Positions 34,037-36,789 of a stretch of DNA of 64,000 nucleotides are shown here, piece by piece. This stretch comes from Methylobacterium sp. 17Sr1-1. GTDB taxonomy: Bacteria; Pseudomonadota; Alphaproteobacteria; Rhizobiales; Beijerinckiaceae. Both the position numbers and the translations under genes were made by a program. How positions within the stretch are numbered: position 1 is the stretch's first letter; every line of letters starts with the position of its first letter. The notes beneath the pieces were generated by a model. It ran no database searches. It was not told where the DNA came from and saw nothing but the letters and a program-made list of their open reading frames with translations. Location of the stretch: contig NZ_CP029552.1 in the NCBI RefSeq assembly GCF_003173775.1, forward strand, positions 5,343,501 through 5,407,500. Reading direction: 5' to 3'.

Positions 34037-34750
34037 ATGAAGAAGCTCGTTGCCCTGACCGGCCTCGCCGTTGCTCTCGCGACCCCCGCCTTCGCGCAGG
34101 TCGGTGGCTTCAACGGGTTCCGCTCGATGGCGCTGATGTCGAACGCGTTCGAGGTCAAGTCGAGCCAGATCGCCCTCGACAAGTCGCGCAACCCGCGCAT
34201 CCGCGAGTACGCCCGCGAGATGATCCGCGACCACCGCGCCGCCAACGTCGCCCTGCTCGGCGGCCGTGAGAACGTGGCTCGCGGCAACGGCGACGGCATC
34301 GGCGGCCTGGTCGAGGCGCCCTTCGCCATCGCGGGCGGGGCGGTCGGCGCGGCCACCGGTGCGGCGGCCGGCGTGGTCGGTGGCACCCTCCAGGGCGGCC
34401 CGGTCGGCGGCCTCCAGGGCCTCGGCACCGGCGCGGCTCGCGGCGCCCAGGTCGGCGCCAACGCGGTCGATTTCGACGGCGACGTGACCACCACGGCGGC
34501 CACCGGTGCGATCCCGCTCGGCCCGCAGCAGCAGGCGATGCTCGCCGAACTCGCCGAGACCCCGGCCGGCCCGGCCTTCGACCGCACCTACGCCCGCATG
34601 CAGGTGCAGGCCCACGGCATGACCGTCGCCAGCTACCAGGCCTACGCGCAGTCGGGCCCGAACCCGGCCCTGCGCTCCTACGTCCAGCAGGCCCTGCCGG
34701 TGATGCAGCATCACCTTGCGATGGCCCAGCGCCTGCCGGGCGCCCGCTGA
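34037..34750 (+). CDS. Secreted DUF4142 protein with glycine-rich insert
   Basis: A 237-residue exported protein. Signal peptide KKLVALTGLAVALATPAFA, cleaved before QVGG. The DUF4142 ferritin-like helical pattern is evident in SNAFEVKSSQIALDKSRNPR and IREYAREMIRDHRAANVALL, then in the C-terminal helices (FDRTYARMQVQAHGMTVASY; YVQQALPVMQHHLAMAQRL). Between them is a glycine-rich insert (GGAVGAATGAAAGVVGGTLQ) that could be a hydrophobic loop. AGGAGAT precedes the ATG. Family members are common in Rhizobiales; function unknown, possibly stress or envelope related. Confidence 0.85.
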   Translation: MKKLVALTGLAVALATPAFAQVGGFNGFRSMALMSNAFEVKSSQIALDKSRNPRIREYAREMIRDHRAANVALLGGRENVARGNGDGIGGLVEAPFAIAGGAVGAATGAAAGVVGGTLQGGPVGGLQGLGTGAARGAQVGANAVDFDGDVTTTAATGAIPLGPQQQAMLAELAETPAGPAFDRTYARMQVQAHGMTVASYQAYAQSGPNPALRSYVQQALPVMQHHLAMAQRLPGAR

Positions 34751-34809: not shown

Positions 34810-34883
34810 GGCAGCGGCGCCGCCGGGGAAAGATCGATTGGCGTCGATTGATCGGGCGGCTCGTTGACCTTATGTTCAAAGGC

Positions 34884-35157
34884 GAGAGCCCGCGGATGGC
34901 GGTCCGCGAGCCCTCTTGTCAGTTAGACCTGCTCGCTACATGAGCCCAATCGTGATGGTCAGAGACCATCCGGTCGGGCTTTTCGCGATGGTGATGGTGA
35001 GCATCGGGAAGCCGATCACATCCTTCACCTCCTTCCCGGCCGTGCCTGCTCGACCCTTGCGGGTCTCGACGGCGGCCGGCGAGATCCGCCGCAAGCCCCG
35101 AGCGCCGCAGGGCCTTCGCAGCCGGGAAGGCATCGCCTGACGCAAGGAAACTAGCGC
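34884..35157 (-). ncRNA. Structured RNA unit A with embedded small ORF
   Basis: Read on the minus strand: a conserved GCGCTAG-TTCCTT start, a leader with closing helix P1 CCTTCCCGGC (35130-35121) with GCCGGGAAGG (35040-35031), 80 nt apart, enclosing three hairpins: P2 (GGCCCT/GGGGCT), P3 (GCGGCGG/CCGCCGT) and P4 (GACCC-GCAA-GGGTC, a GNRA tetraloop). The 3' strand of P1 includes the first four bases of the Shine-Dalgarno sequence. A 27-codon ORF and a 13-bp terminal hairpin (34884-34915) follow. All G-U pairs favour this strand. Unit B repeats the arrangement with compensatory changes. Whether it is a riboswitch, thermosensor or bifunctional sRNA is not known. Confidence 0.65.
34936..35019 (-). 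CDS. 27-residue small protein, copy A
   Basis: GTG start at 35019 preceded by AAGGAGGTGA (35034-35025), fully complementary to the 3' end of 16S rRNA, at good spacing. The peptide reads IGFPMLTITIAKSP then TGWSLTITIGLM: moderately hydrophobic, with LTITI repeated twice around a KSPTGW turn, suggesting a beta hairpin. It is identical in copy B; one synonymous base differs in 84. In copy A the frame stays open further upstream, but copy B has an in-frame stop eleven codons before the GTG, so the short form is the one shared. Could be a leader peptide rather than a product. Confidence 0.5.
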   Translation of the reverse strand: MIGFPMLTITIAKSPTGWSLTITIGLM

Positions 35158-35337
35158 TGGTCGGGCCGCTGTCTTCGCCGGAACTTCGCCGTTCCATGTG
35201 GGCGAACCCGGATTGTTGCGTCGTGCCGTTCCGAAGGGCATAGCGTCATTCGTCTATACCGCCACGCACGAGATCCATTCGCGAAAATCAGCTGGCACTG
35301 ATTGATCGGCGAGGCCGATGGCCCTACCTTCGACAGT

Positions 35338-35610
35338 GAGGGCCCGCGGGTGGTGTCCGCGAGCCCTCTGTCAGGCGATCCTAGTCGCTACATGAGCCCG
35401 ATCGTGATGGTCAGAGACCATCCGGTCGGGCTTTTCGCGATGGTGATGGTGAGCATCGGGAAGCCGATCACATCCTTCACCTCCTTCCCAGCCGTGCCTG
35501 CTCAGCCCTTGCGGGTTTCGACGGTGGCCGGCGATGTCCACCGTAAACCCCACGCGCCACGGGGTTCTCGCAGCCGGGAAGGTGTCTCCTGACGTTAAGG
35601 AACCTAGCGC
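35338..35610 (-). ncRNA. Structured RNA unit B with embedded small ORF
   Basis: A second copy of the unit, about 452 bases upstream on the same strand. P1 is CCTTCCCGGC (35582-35573) with GCTGGGAAGG (35492-35483), one G-U; the enclosed 80 nt have no indel relative to A and differ at 16 positions, of which only one disrupts a proposed pair. Double compensatory changes occur in P2, P3 and P4. The terminal hairpin GAGGGCTCGCGG / CCGCGGGCCCTC is at 35338-35368. It starts about 75 bases after the modC stop and could be read from that operon. Confidence 0.65.
35388..35471 (-). CDS. 27-residue small protein, copy B
   Basis: The same peptide as copy A, starting with GTG at 35471 after AAGGAGGTGA (35486-35477). 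An in-frame TGA at 35504-35502 limits the possible upstream extension, supporting the short ORF. The coding part is almost invariant between copies while the leader differs at one position in five, so either selection or gene conversion holds the coding part at the nucleotide level. Confidence 0.5.
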   Translation of the reverse strand: MIGFPMLTITIAKSPTGWSLTITIGLM

Positions 35611-35685
35611 CGGTTGGACCGCTTGTCTCCATCCGATCCGGCCGTTTTCGAACCTCGGCGCGCTGCCGACGCTCGCAGCTCCAAC

Positions 35686-36789
35686 TCAAATCTCCACTGC
35701 CCCGATCGTCTCCTCGTCGAACGCCACGCTCTTGACGATCGCCACCACCGGCAGGCCCGGCGCCAGGGCGAGCTCGTGGACGGCGAGCCGCGTCACCTCG
35801 GCGACCAGGCTCGCGGCGCCGCAGGCGATCTCGACCCGGGCATGGGGCCCGTCGCCCGGCGTCACGGCGGTGACGGTGCCGGACAGCACGTTGCGGGCGC
35901 TCAGGGAGCGCGGCGCCTCGCGCGCCACCAGCACGTCGCGGGCCCGCACCCGCACCCGCACGCCGGCCCCCACCGGCAGGCCGAGGCGCGGCACCGTCAG
36001 CCGGCCGGGCGGGCCGTCGAGGCGGGTGAGGCCGAAGACGTCGTCGTGGGCGGCAACCCGGAGGTGCAGGAGCGCGCCGGTCTCGCCGCCCGGGAAGAGG
36101 GCGCCCCGGCGCAGGACCTCGGCGGCGGGGCCGCAGGCCGCGACCCTGCCCTGATCGAGCACCACCACCGTGTCGGCGAGGCGCGCGACCTCGGCGACCG
36201 CATGGCTGACATAGACGATCGGCACCCGCGCCTCGTCGCGCAGGCGCGCCACGTAGGGCAGGATCTCGGCCTTGCGCGCCTCGTCGAGGGCCGAGAGCGG
36301 CTCGTCCATCAGGAGGAGCCGCGGGCGCGCCAGCAGCGCCCGGCCGATCGCCACCCGCTGGCGCTCCCCGCCCGACAGCCCGGCCGGCCGCCGGTCGAGC
36401 AGGGGGGCGATGCCCAGGAGATCGGCCACCGCCTCCAGGCTCGGGTCCTCCGCTGGACCTCTGCCGCCGGAGCGGTCGCGGGAGAACCAGCGCCCGAACA
36501 GCAGGTTCTGGCGCACGCTCAGATGCGGCAGGAGCCGCGCCTCCTGGAACACGTAGCCGATCCGGCGCCGGTGCACGGGCACCCGCACGCCGCGATCCGT
36601 GTCGAGGAGGGTGACGCCGTCGACCACCACCCGCCCGCGATCGGGCCGCACGAGCCCGGCGATCACGTCGACGAGGGTCGACTTGCCGGAGCCGGAGCGG
36701 CCGAACAGGGCCGTGACCCGCCCCTCGGCGGTGAAGGCCGCGTCGAGGGCGAAGGCGCCGCGGACGTGCCGGACCGCGACCTCGATCAT
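35686..36789 (-). CDS. modC: Molybdate ABC transporter ATPase ModC
   Basis: A 367-residue ATPase of the molybdate importer. Walker A FGRSGSGKSTLVDVIAG, Q-loop GYVFQEARLLPHL, signature GLSGGERQRVAIGRALLA, Walker B RLLLMDEPLSALDEA. The C-terminal Mop-type molybdate-binding domain follows (SARNVLSGTVTAVTPGDGPH; LAPGLPVVAIVKSVAFD). Length fits ModC. It follows modB by 13 bases. The start codon region is duplicated: ATGATCGAGGTC occurs twice 15 bases apart, the first copy hitting a TGA. Confidence 0.93.
   Translation of the reverse strand: MIEVAVRHVRGAFALDAAFTAEGRVTALFGRSGSGKSTLVDVIAGLVRPDRGRVVVDGVTLLDTDRGVRVPVHRRRIGYVFQEARLLPHLSVRQNLLFGRWFSRDRSGGRGPAEDPSLEAVADLLGIAPLLDRRPAGLSGGERQRVAIGRALLARPRLLLMDEPLSALDEARKAEILPYVARLRDEARVPIVYVSHAVAEVARLADTVVVLDQGRVAACGPAAEVLRRGALFPGGETGALLHLRVAAHDDVFGLTRLDGPPGRLTVPRLGLPVGAGVRVRVRARDVLVAREAPRSLSARNVLSGTVTAVTPGDGPHARVEIACGAASLVAEVTRLAVHELALAPGLPVVAIVKSVAFDEETIGAVEI

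Follow-up and report, generated by a model that had tools for sequence, protein, structure and literature searches.

What is the object that lies twice in tandem on the minus strand of the Methylobacterium DNA analyzed here, a stretch of 64,000 nt (hereafter, the window)? The original prediction, made from the sequence itself, described two structured leaders, each preceding a small open reading frame (ORF), and interpreted them as a cis-acting regulatory RNA or a bifunctional sRNA. The structured minus-strand leader that overlaps the Shine-Dalgarno (SD) sequence of a small ORF is well founded, but the complete unit fits a pair of RNAs, an mRNA and an antisense RNA, instead. Three features that had been missed, namely a (predicted) plus-strand antisense RNA, pairing between the ends of the mRNA and a conserved peptide, shift the reading to the layout of a type I toxin-antitoxin system. 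The earlier observation is thus real, yet covers half of the object, the minus-strand mRNA, and leaves its plus-strand counterpart unseen.

The host genome of the window is a single contig of 6.54 Mb. Units A and B are flanked on one side by the end of a molybdate-transporter-like ABC operon on the minus strand, in which we take the ORF at 35686–36789 (minus) to be modC-like from its sequence, and on the other by a convergent plus-strand ORF (34037–34750). As originally described, they are minus-strand copies spaced by 452 bp, and alignment of the two reproduces the 16 differences, with no indel, across the 80 nt of the leader that are enclosed by a closing helix; the ORFs differ at 1 of 81 bases, synonymously. 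A DNA search revealed a third copy within this genome. A short ORF followed by a hairpin could, in principle, be a leader peptide with an attenuator for a downstream gene, but this explanation is hardly tenable given that the gene downstream of the window copies is convergent and that units of this family occupy 19 different genomic sites (see below).

The closing helix is found in each copy, around the predicted 80 nt. In copy A, its 5′ strand, which is anti-SD (CCTTCCCGGC, 35573–35582, minus strand, as for all leader elements), pairs with a 3′ strand (GCTGGGAAGG, 35483–35492) that runs directly into the SD (AAGGAGGTGA; strand and SD together span 35477–35492), in agreement with the overlap noted from the start; in copy B, 35121–35130 pairs with 35031–35040 within a structured leader that spans 35031–35130, and continues into the same SD, AAGGAGGTGA (35025–35034). 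The three hairpins of the original prediction fared unequally. Hairpins H1 (35547–35565 in copy A), in which 6 of 6 pairs are changed on both sides among homologues, and H2 (35521–35544) covary, whereas the third, GCAA-loop hairpin is retained in the lineage to which the window copies belong and missing from most homologues in an alignment of 24 sequences.

Because the energies at which the individual copies fold are only weakly exceptional (z of −1.74 and −2.76), the case for the leader structure rests on the comparison of homologues. Across 24 leaders (23 distinct), the closing helix and the two hairpins are paired in 89.5% of the alignment cells, compared to 81.2% in shuffled alignments, and 17 of the 24 pairs are changed on both sides, compared to 9.6 in column shuffles, none of 500 of which was as good. 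Thus, the covariation first seen between two copies stands above background once more homologues are aligned. A leader covariance model (R1, built from 24 sequences) extended the comparison to 51 leaders, with 95.2% of the cells paired, double changes in 23 of 24 pairs and 165 double-changed cells against 42 in shuffles, although an alignment built on such a model is biased towards structure; from this alignment, RNAalifold, unaided, predicted 24 pairs, 22 of them with a double change. Moreover, the H2 loop (GCCGR; GCCGG at 35528–35532 in copy A) can pair with YAGGC in the linker after H2 (CAGGC at 35496–35500). Among the 51 leaders, 80% of the cells form this pairing, compared to at most 50% when the strands are slid; double-changed cells number 22 (7.2 in shuffles), and at the fourth position 38 of the 51 have a G-A mismatch. 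The leader is thus probably pseudoknotted. Methylobacterium-1 RNA (RF01712), which had been left open as an identity, shares with the present element the genus name only, judging from the part of its description available (PMC2864571); cmscan of the window did not match it, so this identity is not supported. With E allowed up to 10, scanning the region against Rfam yielded chance matches only, the best being istR (15.6 bits, E of 2.2).

The ORF that follows the SD has a GTG start, 27 codons and a TAG stop in copy A (MIGFPMLTITIAKSPTGWSLTITIGLM, 35388–35471, minus), and copy B encodes the identical 27 residues with one synonymous base difference (34936–35019, minus). Among homologues, the start codon (GTG, ATG or TTG) falls on one alignment column, mostly 5–7 nt past an SD of the type GGRGGTGA; all 43 ORFs classed as intact are open in frame, and the gaps between ORFs are whole codons. 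In 19 diverged representatives (units less than 85% identical to one another), 46% of the replacements are conservative in the ORF frame compared to 8–22% in the other five frames, and codon position 2 is the least variable. The pN/pS ratio is 0.55 for pairs with less than 20% divergence and 0.66 for the representatives, moderate values that are expected if the antisense RNA also constrains third positions. Taken together, these patterns support selection on the peptide reading frame. The peptides follow the pattern [MV][IN]G.P..TITV.K..[TS]GW..TIT[IL].L, in which the alternation of polar and apolar residues suggests a beta-hairpin. The hydrophobic moment at 170 degrees exceeds that at 100 degrees in seven of nine peptide segments, equals it in one and is lower in one, which points the same way in most of them. 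The peptide, amphipathic and beta-like in appearance, has no obvious alpha-helical membrane span. Searches of profile libraries with 28 members gave best E values of 0.2 in Pfam and 0.095 in PHROGs and nothing in NCBIfam or PDB. Pfam and NCBIfam contain the Hok family, and no Hok-family match was among the results for these peptides.

The mRNA itself is predicted to begin at a weak promoter, GAGACA-17-TAGGTT in copy A (35601–35629, minus, score 5.6) and AAGACA-16-TAGTTT in copy B (35148–35175, minus, score 6.6), and its first bases can pair with the stretch between the stop codon and a 3′ hairpin. In copy A, GTCAGG (35588–35593) faces CCTGAC (35370–35375), and in copy B, GTCAG (35137–35141) faces CTGAC (34918–34922), all on the minus strand. 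The two strands coevolve: among the 19 representatives, the mean pairing energy is −12.0 kcal/mol with a unit's own partner compared to −7.9 with permuted partners, and none of 20,000 permutations was as good. The hairpin at the 3′ end (35338–35368 in copy A, 34884–34915 in copy B) contains, over the units compared, 56 G-U cells against 8 A-C cells when read on the mRNA strand, and the leader helices 49 against 28, with 22 of the A-C cells in the closing helix, which was poorly aligned by MAFFT; these are counts of sequences, not of independent events. Such wobble-pair bias makes it possible to read the strand on which each helix is used, and assigns the leader and the 3′ hairpin to the mRNA.

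Folding of 20 full-length mRNAs left the SD region 1–35% unpaired, with the end pairing present in 18 and absent in 2. Covariation and folding thus support the view that the SD is held in a helix in the mRNAs of the units, the exceptions being two viral loci (L128 and L129) that lack an SD-hiding closing helix. When the 3′ end is deleted in silico, the unpaired fraction of the SD stays at or below 32% in the Methylobacterium branch and rises clearly in L104, L091 and L097 only; hence, we do not claim 3′ processing alone as the switch. In one unit (L101, genome G054), an additional palindromic segment of about 100 nt, which resembles an inserted small repeat, separates the SD helix from the start of the ORF.

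On the plus strand, each window unit displays a sigma70-like promoter 7 nt beyond the 3′ hairpin: TTGATC-17-TACCTT in copy A (35302–35330, score 9.1) and TTGATC-17-TATGTT in copy B (34848–34876, score 12.2). Scores are from an E. coli sigma70 matrix, and all promoters and terminators discussed here are predictions. Transcription from these promoters would yield antisense RNAs of about 100 nt (35338–35438 and 34884–34986, plus strand), with the complement of the mRNA 3′ hairpin as their 5′ hairpin, ending at an intrinsic terminator inside the ORF (35394–35438, hairpin and TTTT, in copy A; 34942–34986 in copy B). A hairpin on the antisense strand inside the ORF is present in 43 of 43 intact units (folds read by eye), and in 40 of them the antisense strand is the more stable one over this stretch. 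At least three consecutive T follow it in 34; the other nine, counted by eye, speak against a terminator. Pairs of the in-ORF hairpin change on both sides between subfamilies, and its 25 G-U cells against 4 A-C cells assign it to the antisense strand. A single 40-base stretch would thus encode both the terminator of one RNA and the protein of another.

The antisense promoter scores 11.4 on average in the 19 diverged units, compared to 4.3 (sd 3.0) in shuffled sequence; of 43 units, 36 have a spacer of 17 and 38 a −10 element that ends 5–9 nt before the hairpin. In 37 of the 43 intact units, a promoter scoring at least 7 occurs at the usual place (−10 end 3–12 nt from the hairpin), in four (L051, L057, L059 and L088) a strong one (13.1–15.7) is shifted to 21–24 nt, and in two it is weak (L074, 4.7; L068, 4.8). 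The sequence evidence thus supports an antisense RNA gene, with its own promoter and terminator, that overlaps the peptide mRNA. The mRNA promoter is weaker (7.2 compared to 4.2 in shuffles) and less well conserved, which bears on the interpretation of the leader as a ligand-sensing riboswitch, or of the transcript as a dual-function sRNA, with an incidental antisense promoter. A compact pseudoknotted leader with invariant unpaired bases would fit that interpretation; nevertheless, we consider it quite improbable, not only because the supposedly incidental promoter is the better conserved one, but also because the leader occurs in the genus solely beside the peptide or its remains (51 matches read) and is replaced in other members of the family.

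How far does this arrangement extend? A pattern search returned 17 loci, every one in Methylobacterium or Methylorubrum, and a DNA search copies in 38 of 99 genomes at E of 0.001, many of them short chance matches. The covariance-model search of relatives that the original prediction had called for found, within the genus, 51 matches in 36 of 111 genomes, with covariation maintained. In the family sample, 15 of 397 genomes matched, 12 of them in the genus and the other three rejected, and in the order sample 4 of 397, two of them rejected; the non-genus matches (L062, L063, L064, L072 and L073, 28–36 bits) were dropped, as they have no such ORF. Together with a weaker locus (L013), the 51 matches make 52 units, of which 43 have an intact ORF, as judged by script and inspection, and 9 a broken or extended one. 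By flank homology, the 52 units occupy 19 distinct genomic sites, two of which hold 10 and 8 units.

Dispersal over 19 sites, together with inverted repeats near both ends, might suggest a miniature mobile element, the terminal repeats and palindromes of which mimic RNA structure at the DNA level. This explanation is scarcely credible: the end repeats vary between units yet remain complementary, G-U pairs in the helices are distributed in a strand-specific manner, and selection acts on the reading frame. Among eight damaged units that could be placed by the antisense model, a promoter scoring at least 7 is retained in two, which lost only the stop codon (L067) or suffered a one-base frameshift (L083); the other six score 6.8 (L098), 4.7 (L094), 3.4, −2.8, −3.1 and −4.3, and the ninth damaged unit (L103) has no match to the antisense model. 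Conversely, in L190 the ORF is intact, with the leader and the usual antisense promoter lost. Loss of the promoter along with damage to the ORF suggests mutual dependence of the two, short of proof.

Search of plasmid and phage records with the window unit returned nothing at the limits set, and a relative's unit matched one copy on a plasmid of M. oryzae (117 kb), located past dnaE where no genes are listed. Furthermore, five IMG/VR viral contigs (L127–L131) carry units or the peptide-antisense core; 20 of the 25 matches to a relaxed pattern in viral contigs had no related peptide and were rejected. Two of these contigs (L127 and L131) also encode proteins that look, by eye, DNA-polymerase-III-alpha-like and RecA-like. 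In viral L128 and L129 and in chromosomal L189, a different leader accompanies the retained peptide and antisense signals.

An antisense-RNA model (R2, built from 36 sequences) matched 45 of the 111 genus genomes, several of the 26–29-bit matches being likely due to chance. Beyond the genus, it identified one convincing unit (L196, 39.5 bits) in a low-GC genome (G136) from another genus of the family. Its promoter lies 6 nt from the hairpin, with a score of 17.9 that is inflated because a GC-rich background was used, and its terminator is GCTTTTTTAT. Among the other non-genus R2 matches, at 25–29 bits, those inspected (L186/L197, L187 and L188) were rejected. A peptide profile (A4) added a weak match in genome G216 (E of 9e-4 per genome, 199 genomes searched). 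G136, which is part of the profile, and G216 were the only ones to stand out in the family sample; matches L205, L206 and L207 were rejected on inspection, and the non-genus matches in the class sample (289 genomes) all had E of 0.01 or worse. The peptide match that links the two branches is weak by itself; on inspection, the G216 unit displays an SD, a peptide, an in-ORF antisense terminator, a 3′ hairpin and a candidate promoter, TTGGAA-17-TATATT, 10 nt from the hairpin.

Starting from the G216 match, 14 of 48 genomes of Microvirga, the genus of G216, matched at E of 0.05. Of 16 regions fetched, 15 are units and one (L266) is a chance match; a script found the antisense promoter in 14 of 16 Microvirga units, including L204, the hairpin being mis-called in L254 and L255, and found no start codon in L255. 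Three second-branch units (L253–L255) lie within 3 kb on contig 17 of G216 (approximately 62.7–66 kb). Against plasmid records, a Microvirga query matched 40 and an S. fredii query 44, the latter from Sinorhizobium (18), Roseibium (7), Labrenzia (5), Rhizobium (4), Agrobacterium (4), Microvirga (2) and, with one each, Ensifer, Pseudorhizobium, Ochrobactrum and Ancylobacter. Coverage of the query reaches 80% or more in 16 of the 44 records, and 37 of the 44 rows list no annotated feature under the match, in a gene table that is incomplete by its own account. Seven of ten plasmid loci from other genera passed the ORF filter, all seven with an antisense −10 element at 41–44 nt from the stop codon; on reading, L273 and L278 are variant ORFs and L274 a shortened one.

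Alignment of 22 units of this second branch shows that three kinds of pairing hold, those of the leader helices, of the hairpin inside the ORF and of the SD with the 3′ end of the mRNA: 92.9% of the cells are paired, and 53 are double-changed against 16.8 in shuffles, none of 500 of which was as good. Here the 3′ end of the mRNA would pair directly with the SD; four of the six pairs are invariant and two vary, one of which covaries (C-G in 9, U-A in 6, A-U in 1 and unpaired in 6 of the 22). Strong covariation marks the leaders of L252–L278, which have in common an AAGCAGC stretch that precedes a GCGC hairpin and a GAT.GGC loop. Seven second-branch loci had no match in Rfam, and five second-branch peptides none in Pfam or NCBIfam. 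Accordingly, the leader is not the invariant part of the family: it is another one, or missing, in L128/L129, L189, L196 and the Microvirga and plasmid branch.

The neighbors of the plasmid units include genes for 151-aa DUF3846 proteins, ParB-like and DUF932 proteins and methyltransferases; in L268, L272, L273 and L276, the 151-aa DUF3846 protein is encoded upstream, on the same strand as the unit. A psiB label beside two plasmid units was not confirmed, the proteins matching Pfam DUF3846, which was found in four of seven scanned neighbor proteins, the four being those picked as psiB-labelled or as their counterpart. Toxin-antitoxin, methyltransferase and SOS-inhibitor genes are common or enriched in the leading regions of plasmids, according to the part of PMC11541004 available. 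An identity of the plasmid copies with the repABC incompatibility RNA was set aside because the listed neighbor genes at the inspected units of S. fredii, S. meliloti and Roseibium aggregatum are not repC, the Microvirga record having no gene entries at that place; repA lies approximately 2.6 kb from the unit in L273, and repC approximately 0.55 kb away in L275.

Thus, as judged from sequence evolution, the window contains two copies of a real, conserved peptide module of two predicted RNAs with the layout of a type I toxin-antitoxin system, and the family is new as far as the searches reach: none of the scanned members matched a family in Rfam, Pfam or NCBIfam. This evolutionary record supports the layout, the coding and the assignment of strands, and transcription, toxicity and antisense action would follow from them by analogy. 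We consider it likely that each unit is a type I toxin-antitoxin module, a candidacy supported also by the tandem and multicopy arrangement, the occurrence on plasmids and viral contigs, and the same layout with different sequence in other genera. Under the proposed mechanism, a short mRNA would encode the conserved peptide of 27–30 residues; folding of its leader would place the SD in a helix and its ends would pair, so that the full-length mRNA would be present at a low level, stable and untranslated until it is opened by processing or by a signal. The antisense RNA, about 100 nt long and transcribed from the opposite-strand promoter to the intrinsic terminator across the 3′ hairpin and the latter half of the ORF, would be more abundant and pair with the mRNA, perhaps starting at the complementary hairpin loops, leading to degradation. 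Should the antisense RNA be exhausted, through plasmid loss or a drop in transcription, the peptide would be made and harm the cell, perhaps at the membrane.

The same two-RNA layout could also serve a harmless regulatory or structural small protein, the dose of which is lowered by the antisense RNA. The amphipathic, beta-like peptide without a classic helix agrees with this alternative, as does the maintenance of the same chromosomal sites across species (the sites with 10 and 8 of the 52 units), which would fit a useful gene. We nonetheless regard it as unlikely, given that the layered repression, the tandem and decaying copies and the presence on plasmids and viral contigs fit a toxin better, and so does a candidate antisense promoter in all 43 intact leader-bearing units, weak and shifted ones included. 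If the toxin-antitoxin interpretation is correct, plant-associated bacteria with many large plasmids possess addiction or stress modules of the hok/sok kind that were overlooked because the genes are merely 27–30 codons long. A broader proposal, which we put forward tentatively and as possible rather than probable, is that a type I superfamily has gone unnoticed across the Hyphomicrobiales, on chromosomes, plasmids and phage-like contigs, with a beta-hairpin peptide as a new type of toxin, a pseudoknotted leader switch that is exchanged between branches around a constant peptide and antisense core, and a role in plasmid maintenance or establishment. If the toxin-antitoxin interpretation holds, the family would also provide a defined set of loci and a natural series of differing RNA leaders around a constant toxin-antisense core.

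We found no report of this family in the literature on type I toxin-antitoxin systems (Methylobacterium, Alphaproteobacteria, Rhizobiales/Sinorhizobium), Methylobacterium small RNAs, novel type I loci and psiB or leading regions, a search in which subscription papers were largely outside the scope. Comparison with known systems, as presented in the parts of the cited sources that were available, reveals several parallels. As in hok/sok, an mRNA that is folded shut (in hok, until its 3′ end is cut) would face an antisense RNA, and copies exist on plasmids and chromosomes; unlike Sok, which pairs with the 5′ leader and the upstream ORF mok, the antisense RNA predicted here covers the 3′ half (PMC4147584). 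The tandem chromosomal repeats, each with a toxin mRNA and an antisense RNA, recall ldr/rdl (PMC4147584), although LdrD is alpha-helical (PMC8309996). The membrane type I toxins reviewed in that source are alpha-helical in general, and the present peptide, which looks otherwise, would be of a type outside them. In the aapA/IsoA system of Helicobacter pylori, a 30-residue peptide is combined with an 80-nt antisense RNA opposite the ORF and with 5′-3′ pairing of the mRNA, and an untranslatable primary transcript is considered a major hallmark of type I loci (PMC6733600). The present units differ from aapA/IsoA in their bacterial class, in the large covarying pseudoknotted leader, in the antisense terminator inside the ORF and in the beta-like appearance of a peptide that is set beside AapA by description only. 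They resemble it in peptide length, in an antisense RNA encoded across from the ORF under its own (predicted) promoter, in an SD-hiding structure, in the presence of several chromosomal copies (PMC6733600) and in the long-distance pairing of the 5′ and 3′ ends, to which the coevolution of the paired sequences points in the present family.
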